Below are positions 6,264-57,230 of a stretch of 64,000 bases of DNA, in pieces; within the stretch, counting starts at the first letter, position 1; each line of letters opens with the position of its first letter. The translations under genes were made by a program, and so were the position numbers. The stretch is from Bacteroides sp. (GTDB taxonomy: Bacteria > Bacteroidota > Bacteroidia > Bacteroidales > Muribaculaceae). Under the pieces are notes generated by a model, which did not search any database, was not told the origin of the DNA, and saw nothing but the letters and a program-made list of their open reading frames with translations. Location: assembly GCA_014802045.1 (NCBI GenBank), contig JAAVDA010000017.1, positions 10,583 through 74,582 on the forward strand. The letters run 5' to 3'.

Positions 6264-6295
6264 TTTGCTAATCTACCGCATTCTTCCTAACTTCG
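6264..6295 (+). promoter_or_regulatory. Bacteroidetes-type promoter upstream of leader element copy 1 and folP
   Basis: TTTG-N20-TAACTTCG (consensus TTTG-N19/20-TAnnTTTG, one mismatch). Confidence 0.5.
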
Positions 6296-6305
6296 CATAA
6301 AATAA

Positions 6306-6465
6306 GTAAGTCATGAAAATCAGTTTATACTATCTTACGCGCCGTCATAACACTCTTCCGGCTTAATCATCAGTCATGATGGAGCCCCTTTACTCCCTCC
6401 TCGCAAGTACAGATCTTATAAATGACACCATCGTATCATATTATAAACTAATTTACAAGACTTAC
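6306..6465 (+). repeat. Copy 1 of dispersed ~160-nt element with imperfect terminal inverted repeats
   Basis: Ends GTAAGTCATGAAAATCAGTTTATACTAT / reverse complement of right end GTAAGTCTTGTAAATTAGTTTATAATAT; roughly 80% identical by eye to 55177..55335. Confidence 0.8.
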
Positions 6466-6482
6466 ATAAAACTTACCTGATA

Positions 6483-7334
6483 TTGACACCTTTCTCTCTT
6501 AATATCCACGGGAGCCTGCTCGAAATCACCAGGCCGCAGGTAATGGCCATCATAAATGCCACTCCCGACTCTTTTCACTCCCCGTCGCGCCACACTGCGG
6601 CCGGAAGCGTAGGAGCGACTGCCGAACGGTTTATATCCGAGGGGGCCGACATTATAGATGTGGGCGCCTATTCATCGCGTCCGGGAGCCGATGATGTGTC
6701 TGAGCAAGAAGAGATGACCCGGCTGCGCACCGCTTTGAGAGAAATCCGCGCGGTTGATTCGCATATACCTGTGTCTGTCGATACTTTCCGCTCAGCTGTG
6801 GCTCGTATGGCGGTTGAGGAATTCGGAGCCGACATAATCAACGATATTTCCGGTGGAGATATGGATGAGGAGATGTTTGGCACCGTAGCTTCTCTCCATG
6901 TGCCATACGTGCTGATGCACATGCGCGGCACACCCGCCACCATGCAGCATCTCACCGATTATGCCGATGGAGATGTGACCGGAGGAGTGATTTCCGAACT
7001 CTCAGCCAAAATCAGACGTCTCCACCTGCTTGGCGTGAGCGACGTGATTATAGACCCCGGGCTGGGTTTTGCTAAGACTACCTCACAAAACTTCACTCTT
7101 CTGCGCCAGCTTCCACTCCTCACCGAGGCATTCGGACTCCCGATTCTCATCGGCCTATCGAGAAAATCTATGCTCACCCGCACCCTGTCAATCACACCTG
7201 CAGAAGCCCTCGAAGCCACTGTGGCGGCCGATATGATAGCTCTGATGCAAGGAGCCTCCATATTGCGGGTGCATGACCCACTCCCCTGCCGCCAGAGTGT
7301 GGAGCTCTTCACAACTACATTTTCCAACACCTGA
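6483..7334 (+). CDS. folP: Dihydropteroate synthase
   Basis: MAIINATPDSF, DIIDVGAYSSRPGA, DIINDISGG, DPGLGFAKT motifs; TTG start. Confidence 0.93.
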   Translation: MTPFSLNIHGSLLEITRPQVMAIINATPDSFHSPSRHTAAGSVGATAERFISEGADIIDVGAYSSRPGADDVSEQEEMTRLRTALREIRAVDSHIPVSVDTFRSAVARMAVEEFGADIINDISGGDMDEEMFGTVASLHVPYVLMHMRGTPATMQHLTDYADGDVTGGVISELSAKIRRLHLLGVSDVIIDPGLGFAKTTSQNFTLLRQLPLLTEAFGLPILIGLSRKSMLTRTLSITPAEALEATVAADMIALMQGASILRVHDPLPCRQSVELFTTTFSNT

Positions 7335-29756: not shown

Positions 29757-30191
29757 TCAGTCCATCTTGATTTCTGTCTCGCTCATCTCGGCATACTCAT
29801 TCCAATCTGGATCGTTCTCCGAGTAGATGTTCAGCGGAAGCACCGGATAATCAGCAAGAGCCTCATTCAGTTTCTTCCCGAAAATATTGGTCGAAAGAGT
29901 ATAAAACACCCAGTTACGCTCACCCGCACCGGTATATATCCCGGTCAGCACAGCTACAGGGTCTTTCTTAAACGCCTCTTCAAGTGCCTCCTGCACCTGC
30001 TCCATCAATTCTGAGGTTTGTTTGTCGGGCATCCCGTCGGCAGTGCTTTCGTATGGCCACGTCACTTCCACTCTTATTGAAAAGCGCGGATTAGATCTGA
30101 ATCGGTTCACATCCTTGCGACCCGTAACCATTATAAGTCGTCCATCCTCTGCCTGAGCCGGAGCCGTCCACCATTCTGTCTCTTTAGCCAT
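29757..30191 (-). CDS. DUF695-like protein
   Basis: Resemblance to DUF695 (WWTAPAQAEDGRLIMVTGRKDVNRFRSNPRFSIRVEVTWPYE...). Confidence 0.7.
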   Translation of the reverse strand: MAKETEWWTAPAQAEDGRLIMVTGRKDVNRFRSNPRFSIRVEVTWPYESTADGMPDKQTSELMEQVQEALEEAFKKDPVAVLTGIYTGAGERNWVFYTLSTNIFGKKLNEALADYPVLPLNIYSENDPDWNEYAEMSETEIKMD

Positions 30192-30193
30192 AA

Positions 30194-30380
30194 CTAAATC
30201 GTGTAAAATAGTTTATAAATTAGTTTATATTGAGATTCTTTATTGAATTTCGCAAGATTTGCATTTGATCTCACGGAATATCTGGATTACTTAATGACAA
30301 ATGAGTGAGTCCGAATATTGTCATAAATCCGCTTATCCCTATTTATCAATCACAAAGGTATATAAAATTACGTGGGTGTC
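30194..30380 (-). repeat. Degenerate copy 3 of the ~160-nt leader-like element (minus strand)
   Basis: Reverse complement contains TTCGGACTcACTCATtTGTCATTA and AATATAAACTAATTT...CACGATTTAG-TT-ATG matching 55177..55335; left end is diverged. Confidence 0.55.
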
Positions 30381-55114: not shown

Positions 55115-55122
55115 TAACTTTG
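55115..55122 (+). promoter_or_regulatory. Putative -7 box upstream of leader element copy 2
   Basis: TAACTTTG matches TAnnTTTG; no clear -33 TTTG. Confidence 0.35.
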
Positions 55123-55176
55123 CACCACGTTTCAAACAATTTAATAAGTCTAATAAGGATAAGTGATGAGTAATGA

Positions 55177-55335
55177 GTAAGCCATGAAAATTAGTTTATA
55201 CTATCCTACGCGCTGTCATAATAATCTTCGGACTTACTCATCTGTCATTATGCCCCCCATAACTCCAACCTCGTAAATCCAAATCTTATAAACGACACCA
55301 TCATATCATAATATAAACTAATTTCCACGACTTAC
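55177..55335 (+). repeat. Copy 2 of dispersed ~160-nt element with terminal inverted repeats
   Basis: Left GTAAGCCATGAAAATTAGTTTATACTAT, right (reverse complement) GTAAGTCGTGGAAATTAGTTTATATTAT; ends 2 nt before the ATG at 55338. Confidence 0.82.
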
Positions 55336-55337
55336 TT

Positions 55338-57230
55338 ATGAAATTGCTTCCCTCTTATGTTTTTCTACCGCTTACACTGATGGCTACAAGCGGATATGCG
55401 GCAACTGCTGATGAATCTGCCGAGTTTCCGGACACGGTGAGTCTCAGCGAGGTGGTGGTCACCGCTCCGCTAAAAACGAATCCCGACCTGATACCTCTCA
55501 ATGTGACTCAGGTCACAGCCTCACAGATAGAGAATTCCGGCGAGACATCTCTGCTACCGGTGCTCGTGTCGAAGGTTGCCGGTCTGTTTGTGACCGAACG
55601 CGGTTTTGCGGGCTACGGGGTGTCGGGTGGCAGCGCGGGCACCGTGAACATACGCGGTGTGGGGCAAGGCAACAAAGTGCTCTTCATGATTGACGGTCAG
55701 CCACAATGGGCCGGAGTGTTCGGCCACAGTCTGGCCGACACATATGTGGCCAACGGAGTGGAAAGGGTTGAGGTGGTGAAGGGTCCGTCTTCGCTGCTCT
55801 ACGGCTCGAATGCCATGGGCGGCTCAATCAATATAGTGACGCAGACTCAGACGCAGGAGGGACTCACAGGGAGAGCAAGAGCGATGTTCGGGTCGTTCAG
55901 CACCCAGAAATTCGCCCTATCGTCGGGCTATAAGAGAGGAAAACTCTCGGCCACTCTCTCCGGCCAACTCGACCGCAGCAACGGCAACCGTGCCGGAAGC
56001 GCTTTCTGGCTTGCCAACGAATTCGCACAAATAAAATATGCAGCGTCTCACAGATGGAACATAGCCGGAATGCTCGACATGACTCAGAGCCATGCCAACA
56101 ATCCGGGCACACGGCAAGATCCGCTTGAAAATATGTGGACGGATATTTTCCGCGGCACCGGCGGGCTGTATGTGAAAAACGCTTATGAGAAGATGGATGG
56201 CGGTGTGCAGACCTATATAAACTGGGGGCGCCATAAAGTTGATGACGGCAACACTCCCGGCGAGACTCCACGCGACTACCTGTTTAATTCCACAGACTAC
56301 AACATGGGTATCACAGCCTATGAGTCGTTCTATCTGTGGCAAGCCAACACTCTGTCGGCGGGAATAGATTTCCAGCATTGGGGAGGGCGCATCTGGAACA
56401 CCGACAAGGAGAATCAGGCAATGAGGTCGGGAGAGTCATCACACCATGTGAACGAGATTGCCGGATATGCCATGATGCAGCAGGGATTAGCCAACGACAT
56501 AGTGAATATAAACGGCGGAGTGCGGCTGCAACACGGCTCGACCTACGGAAATGTGTGGGTGCCTCAGGCGGGGTTTATCGTAAAGCCGGGAGCCGGCTCG
56601 CAGATTAAAGCTTCGTTCAGCAAGGGCTTCCGCTCTCCCAACATTCGCGAGCTTTATCTCTATCCTCCGGCCAATCCCGACCTAAAGCCGGAATATATGC
56701 TCAACTATGAGGTGGGCTACCGGCAGCATCTGGCTGACTACAGAGTGATGCTTGGAGCAGCAGTTTACTATATCGACGGACGCAATATGATTCAGACTGT
56801 GATGACCGACGGGAGGCCCCGAAACGTGAATACCGGAAAATTCCGCAACAAGGGTTTTGAACTCGAAGCAGCCTGGCAGATAGTTCAGTCGCTTCGGGCA
56901 AGCGCCTCATGGTCATATCTCCACACGGATTCAGAGAACCTCTATTCTCCGAAAAATAAATTAAATGCCGAGCTTACGTATTCTCACAAAGGGGTCAGCA
57001 TCACGGCTGAAAACACCTCGATCTGGAGCATGAAAAACGGCAATCCGGAAGGAACGGGAGTGAGCTACTCGCTGCTGAATCTCCGTGCTGCATATACGCT
57101 GTCGGCTCCGACCGTGCCGGTGACTCTATCGGTGAAGGTGGACAACCTCACCAATAAGCACTATGAGATAATCTACGGCTGCCCTATGCCCGGAACAACG
57201 ATAATGGGCGGGGTGGAATTCAAATTTTAG
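55338..57230 (+). CDS. TonB-dependent outer membrane receptor
   Basis: Plug domain (GTVNIRGVGQGNKVLFMIDGQPQW...VERVEVVKGPSSLLYGSNAMGGSINIVT) and TonB-dependent barrel. Confidence 0.95.
   Translation: MKLLPSYVFLPLTLMATSGYAATADESAEFPDTVSLSEVVVTAPLKTNPDLIPLNVTQVTASQIENSGETSLLPVLVSKVAGLFVTERGFAGYGVSGGSAGTVNIRGVGQGNKVLFMIDGQPQWAGVFGHSLADTYVANGVERVEVVKGPSSLLYGSNAMGGSINIVTQTQTQEGLTGRARAMFGSFSTQKFALSSGYKRGKLSATLSGQLDRSNGNRAGSAFWLANEFAQIKYAASHRWNIAGMLDMTQSHANNPGTRQDPLENMWTDIFRGTGGLYVKNAYEKMDGGVQTYINWGRHKVDDGNTPGETPRDYLFNSTDYNMGITAYESFYLWQANTLSAGIDFQHWGGRIWNTDKENQAMRSGESSHHVNEIAGYAMMQQGLANDIVNINGGVRLQHGSTYGNVWVPQAGFIVKPGAGSQIKASFSKGFRSPNIRELYLYPPANPDLKPEYMLNYEVGYRQHLADYRVMLGAAVYYIDGRNMIQTVMTDGRPRNVNTGKFRNKGFELEAAWQIVQSLRASASWSYLHTDSENLYSPKNKLNAELTYSHKGVSITAENTSIWSMKNGNPEGTGVSYSLLNLRAAYTLSAPTVPVTLSVKVDNLTNKHYEIIYGCPMPGTTIMGGVEFKF

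Follow-up and report, generated by a model that had tools for sequence, protein, structure and literature searches.

The interiors of MITEs are usually seen as junk between terminal repeats. REP/RAYT elements are built as a hairpin with a purine motif at its foot, and they occur between genes in high copy number. RUP, the repeat unit of pneumococcus, is a small non-autonomous element that inserts at TA and whose terminal inverted repeats (TIRs) match those of IS630-Spn1, a member of the IS630 family by which its mobilisation has been proposed (PMC2229807). According to the same source, the Correia/NEMIS elements of Neisseria are ~107–155 bp long, with TIRs of about 24 bp and a terminal TA, and are transcribed as long stem-loops, for which a role via RNase III on host mRNAs has been proposed; ERIC of the enterobacteria is an intergenic foldback, also with a terminal TA, that is co-transcribed with genes and on whose orientation mRNA stability depends (PMC2229807). 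Within the Bacteroidales, Porphyromonas gingivalis carries intergenic MITEs, BrickBuilt among them (PMC10969869).

The element that we describe here, from a window of 64,000 nucleotides (the whole stretch of DNA analysed), is ordinary in kind, being an IS630-type MITE that lies in leaders. In this case, however, conservation of the interior structure is confined to one strand, elements with different ends have it in common, and this conserved hairpin, found inside many MITE families, is apparently undescribed so far. The element resembles RUP in its IS630-matched TIRs and its insertion at TA, but differs from it in sequence, in host phylum and in length (107 nt for RUP, ~164 nt here), and the available text on RUP does not mention a strand-specific tandem-G·A core. 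It shares size, TIRs and terminal TA with Correia/NEMIS, although the sequences are unrelated and the inserted copies studied here show no G·U preference. It is likewise unrelated in sequence to ERIC, which has shorter TIRs, and in contrast to the orientation effects of ERIC its own orientation is unbiased. BrickBuilt differs in carrying a minisatellite. The hairpin with a purine motif at its foot, the high copy number and the intergenic position recall REP/RAYT elements, but the elements here are bounded by TIRs and flanked by duplications of TA or TNA, as is typical of DDE-type transposition.

Copy 1 of the MITE (55175–55337, plus strand, ~164 nt; nhmmer 143.6 bits, E=1.2e-42) lies directly upstream of a TonB-dependent receptor gene (55338–57230, plus strand; PF00593, PF07715), and copy 2 (6304–6467, plus strand; 144.3 bits, E=7.4e-43) lies upstream of folP, the dihydropteroate synthase gene (6483–7334, plus strand; PF00809, 1.7e-69). 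The two copies, 163–164 nt long, are 83% identical from end to end (E=1.5e-41) and have inverted arms of 28–32 nt that are about 80–87% complementary, which bears out the ~160-nt repeat with terminal inverted repeats of ~28 nt that an earlier note had recognised in this DNA. In copy 1 the arms span 55173–55204 and 55308–55339 (32 nt, 84% complementary). Its left TIR (55175–55200, plus strand) reads AGTAAGCCATGAAAATTAGTTTATA, with the outer TA mutated to TG, and its right TIR (55312–55336, plus strand) is followed by the target-site TA at 55337–55338. Inspection of the sequence around copy 2 revealed a TA/TA target-site duplication at 6303–6304 and 6467–6468, with AGTAAG at 6305. TIR-like 13-mers occur seven times in the window, against 0.83 expected. 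Using an nhmmer profile built from ten relatives, we also detected a decayed copy 3 on the minus strand (30194–30332, right limit approximate; 26.2 bits, E=1.4e-6, model positions 36–152), downstream of which lies a DUF695 gene (29757–30191, minus strand; PF05117, 3.9e-31). The third copy that had been proposed at 30194–30380 is therefore significant as far as about 30332, but its left arm out to 30380 is unrecognisable. Three copies are indeed present in the window; as a count this is too low, because the genome from which the window comes (G000, 2.2 Mb, 75.7% complete) contains five further degenerate or truncated pieces outside it.

Related elements are widespread in the family. The terminal repeat AAGTAAGTCRTGWAAATTAGTTTATA was present in 60 of 397 same-family genomes, compared with ~0 matches for a reversed control pattern, and several genera contain elements whose length is exactly 164 nt and whose interiors are homologous. 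One Muribaculaceae relative, G064, contains about 30 copies, most of them 90–100% identical. Nearly all copies are flanked by TA at both ends; in copy 1 the right TA is intact and the left has become TG. A ~50-nt mini-element in another genome (G003:C9, L030:1500-1551) consists of scarcely more than two terminal repeats placed back to back. TA is the target duplication of IS630/Tc1-mariner elements, and in the genome G147 a 1.1-kb IS lies between matching TIRs, with a transposase that matches PF13358 (DDE_3; 6e-30) and NF033545 (the NCBI IS630 transposase family; 3e-31). A further IS630 transposase gene is found in G119, where a matching TIR stands at several contig ends. A transposase with matching TIRs had been named beforehand as evidence against reading the element as a leader RNA, and in these related genomes it is present. 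Searches for the IS630 transposase found none in G000 (75.7% complete) and detected none in G064 (99% complete), in which the ~30 MITE copies are young and near-identical. Two other candidates were discarded, namely the longest open reading frame of L068 on the strand first listed, since the IS is reversed at this locus, and L047, which has a glycosyltransferase between TIR-like ends. In both G147:C11 (L056:406-1526) and G119:C78 (L352) the transposase profile was matched in two overlapping frames (profile positions 2–108 and 43/97–297), which suggests that the gene may be expressed by programmed frameshifting rather than being decayed.

From the distribution of the TIRs, the multicopy 164-nt elements, the TA flanks and the TIR-matched IS of G147 and G119, the element is very probably an IS630-type MITE with a conserved foldback as its interior, copies 1 and 2 of which have landed in 5' UTRs. 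It is 164 nt long and free of transposase, its multiple copies are dispersed and flanked by a TA duplication, its TIRs match an IS of the IS630 family, and empty sites are found. On the basis of these sequence comparisons, an IS630-family transposase would recognise the terminal repeats AGTAAGTCRTGWAAATTAGTTTATA and mobilise the MITE in trans, with TA dinucleotides as the likely insertion target.

A comparison of diverged subfamilies revealed a conserved central part, at a fixed offset of 67–69 nt from the end. It consists of a core of ~50 nt on the purine strand, in which an apical 7-bp stem is carried by a lower helix made up alternately of tandem G·A pairs and covarying Watson–Crick pairs. 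The core occupies 55229–55281 in copy 1 (minus strand, antisense to the gene; cmsearch with model R2, 45.6 bits) and 6358–6411 in copy 2 (minus strand; 43.3 bits); in copy 3 the R2 covariance model detected none. G·A or A·G is found at positions 1–2, 5–6 and 8–9 in 26–33 of 36 sequences, and the Watson–Crick pairs beside these fixed positions take up to four types. When the 13 Watson–Crick pairs of the core were followed through 35 sequences, 90.5% of cells were formed, 12 of the 13 pairs had changed on both sides, and 132 cells were compensatory. The covariation score in this set was 0.778, compared with 0.249 for shuffled sequences, and slid structures reached no more than 0.154; an earlier set of 20 sequences gave the same picture. 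On the strand that is sense relative to the downstream genes, the G·A pairs of the core would read as T·C mismatches. Rfam gave no matches in the window at the gathering score and, for nine loci of the element, nothing relevant at E<=1, so that the initial impression that no named riboswitch family fits is correct as far as Rfam is concerned; a literature search for the core found no paper. A hammerhead or kink-turn interpretation of the CUGA and GAAGGAG motifs was rejected by eye, since the core residues that these motifs need, or the 3-nt bulge, are missing from the expected positions.

The positions of the copies relative to genes had led the earlier note to propose a new leader RNA or translational switch, in which the terminal repeats pair in the mRNA, fold the ribosome-docking region and regulate the downstream gene in cis. 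The distances of 2, 17 and 2 nt to the start codons are correct (ATG at 55338; TTG of folP at 6483, a start backed by orthologs; DUF695 ATG at 30191), and in copy 1 the A of the target-site TA doubles as the A of the receptor ATG. Each of the five additional pieces in this genome is also located upstream of a start codon, most at no more than about 25 nt, and all orientable copies point in the direction of the gene; one piece (C6:9538) measures 26 nt, too short for its orientation to be determined. The promoter −7 motif of Bacteroides is TAnnTTTG (PMC4747536, PMC7366714), and native −7 boxes precede copy 1 (TAACTTTG, 55115–55122, plus strand; the empty ortholog L118 has the corresponding TACATTTG) and copy 2 (TAACTTCG, 6288–6295, plus strand; the folP ortholog L146 has the similar TAATTTCG), placing both intact copies within the 5' UTR, between promoter and start codon. 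Shuffled versions of copy 1 fold less well than its actual sense strand (z=−4.9).

Comparison with other genomes, however, argues strongly against such a switch. In sister species the sites are empty: the ortholog of the TonB receptor gene in G024, which has the same upstream methyltransferase gene, is preceded by a plain short leader free of the element, all folP orthologs retrieved are without it, and the genes downstream of the copies are unrelated (TonB receptor, folP, DUF695 and others). Among 119 distinct core-bearing copies from many genomes, codirectional contexts comprised 32 sense and 22 antisense cases (p=0.22); another 32 contexts were divergent and 12 convergent. In G064, 9 of 19 copies were within 30 nt of a gene start (expected fraction 0.113) and 10 of 19 were equally close to a stop (expected 0.11), these expectations being rough because the null still contains DNA that a simple gene caller left without annotation. 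We therefore rejected fixed orientation or start-codon targeting as a property of the element: the rule that it always abuts a start codon and points the same way as the gene applies to the orientable copies of the window's genome and breaks down in the family, where copies occur in both orientations and near gene starts and ends alike. The bias in this one genome probably reflects a few old insertions that were least harmful or were retained as leaders. The folding of the two strands is also at odds with a leader function. In 30 of 30 elements the purine strand, antisense to the genes in the window, folded better than the other (mean −63.8 versus −45.8 kcal/mol), and for copy 1 the values were −75.3 and −27.5; the conserved G·A pairs, as noted above, would be T·C mismatches on the sense strand. 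The conserved structure is thus antisense to the genes. We regard a cis-acting leader RNA as very unlikely. Donation of a promoter by the element was rejected as well, since the native −7 boxes are upstream of copies 1 and 2 and TAnnTTTG is not conserved inside the element. What holds up is the other suggestion made at the outset, that of a mobile module inserting as a leader, given the TA sites, the empty orthologous sites and the IS630 partner. Copies 1 and 2 would have entered the interval between native promoter and start codon, become part of the 5' UTR by accident and then been retained.

Because the strand was picked from the core, counting G·U and A·C outside it provides an independent check on the strand that matters. 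In 34 representatives, transitions between the two arms outside the core left 113 G·U pairs on the purine strand as against 44 of A·C, with 27 representatives leaning to G·U, three to A·C and four tied; the representatives are related to each other, such that p-values overstate their independence. The young copies of G064 (n=27) gave a different result, with 18 departures from the consensus to G·U and 18 to A·C, in a test that comprises only 36 informative changes and includes variants shared between copies. In these copies G·A was still above T·C (27 versus 6, p=3e-4).

Template switching makes compensatory changes without selection. It is conceivable, then, that the core has no function, its palindromes having stayed paired by quasi-palindrome template switching and its conservation reflecting recent common descent and spread, and the whole element is indeed a foldback that matches its own reverse complement at about 74% identity. 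The same process should nevertheless have removed the G·A mismatches as well; these persist at fixed positions, and it does not account for an excess of G·U over A·C that exists between subfamilies and is unseen in young copies. We consider this explanation unlikely. A second possibility is that the MITE encodes a trans-acting structured RNA, read from the purine strand, whose binding partner would be a host protein, the transposase or mRNAs. The preference of this strand for G·U over A·C, the RNA-like covariation and the insertion irrespective of orientation would all fit. On the other hand, a TAnnTTTG promoter on the purine strand is not conserved (1 of 30 elements), and under a trans function one would hardly expect each propagating lineage to stay intact where there are many copies; this explanation, too, seems rather unlikely.

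Since the G·U excess is found between subfamilies and there is none in young inserted copies, selection seems to act on the propagating lineages, and hence a cis function of the element is favoured. The pattern speaks for selection on how well the element spreads itself, not on how host genes are regulated. As no purine-strand promoter is conserved and a trans RNA need not keep every lineage intact, we lean towards folded single-stranded DNA, RNA being the strongest competing possibility. We infer that the hairpin works in cis as a single strand folded on itself, most probably as ssDNA during replication and less probably as RNA, and that it may aid propagation whichever transposase supplies the ends. 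That the core is an aid to propagation in cis, and not a host regulatory leader, is thus put forward tentatively, as a reading that could well prove wrong.

The core recurs in MITEs whose terminal repeats are of six or more distinct kinds. The core covariance model matched in G040, in G054 and at four more places in G000, inside elements with other ends. These ends include GAAGTGATTTAAACTTTT, GAAACTGTTTAAATTTAT and GAGTATGTTTACTTTTAAA, flanked by TTA or TAA, as well as GAAGTCATCTTGACTTTT (flank TCA), GAGGGTGTTTAATAA, AGTAACCGTTAAAAAATAAG and others, and the differences in ends and target duplications suggest that different transposases may move the core-bearing elements. The IS630 IS loci themselves lack the core. 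With a larger core model, matches were obtained in 146 of 247 Muribaculaceae genomes and in 20 of 30 genera, and the window's own genome was found to contain ten cores. A phylum scan of 398 genomes with a strict-filter covariance model matched only this genome and one other Bacteroidales genome. The exact DNA pattern of the core, by comparison, was found in at least 120 stretches of named genomes, nearly all from Bacteroidales among the matches listed, which include Prevotella (Prevotella falsenii DSM 22864), Alloprevotella (Alloprevotella sp. Lung230), an Alistipes record and Paludibacteraceae. This pattern scan led us to reject the confinement to one family that the order and phylum scans with covariance models had suggested. 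A search of viral contigs for the core gave no match.

Recurrence in different TIR contexts might also be expected if the core were itself a small mobile unit of the REP type, moved into different MITEs by a RAYT (Y1/HUH) transposase. The GGAG directly 5' of the core hairpin presumably resembles the REP tetranucleotide, a likeness that we treat as a lead only. Homology, however, extends past the core through the outer stems, IS630-type elements keep a constant distance of 67–69 nt between TIR and core, and almost all inspected cores are situated within terminal repeats, all of which makes an independently moving unit very unlikely. A bolder reading, less likely than not, is a portable, strand-specific G·A hairpin common to MITEs of different transposases across the Bacteroidales, which would serve in cis the mobilisation or survival of small foldback elements in general, as a transposase-independent 'cargo' under selection for propagation and of a kind undescribed so far. 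If confirmed, bacterial MITEs would carry a selectable non-coding part, there would be a testable reason for the success of some MITE families in Bacteroidales, and the core could be used as an annotation marker for many unrecognised elements in gut genomes. A caution also follows for the annotation of regulatory RNAs, in that 5' UTRs derived from such elements may mimic new riboswitches.

Several individual occurrences of the core were recorded. The pattern was matched exactly in a Nannocystineae MAG record (L235, SLNH01000143.1), a myxobacterial bin in which MITE ends are not visible, and this is either a chance match or contamination. In G000 the core is also part of another repeat, which starts with agaccccgttccccaatatttgttaac and has no obvious short TIRs (C11:30361-30414, C22:7098-7151 and C22:23556-23609, in L165, L168 and L174, respectively); L211 is similar. 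Two elements of G040 (L181:1504-1716 and L185:1345-1557) contain two cores each, in opposite orientation and about 100 nt apart, and four such opposite-orientation pairs are listed for this genome. Finally, in G990 (L218–L231), from another Bacteroidales family, a ~192-nt MITE is present in twelve copies; its ends are GAAACTGTTTTGAATTTAT, its target duplication is TNA, and it carries a shorter version of the same G·A core.
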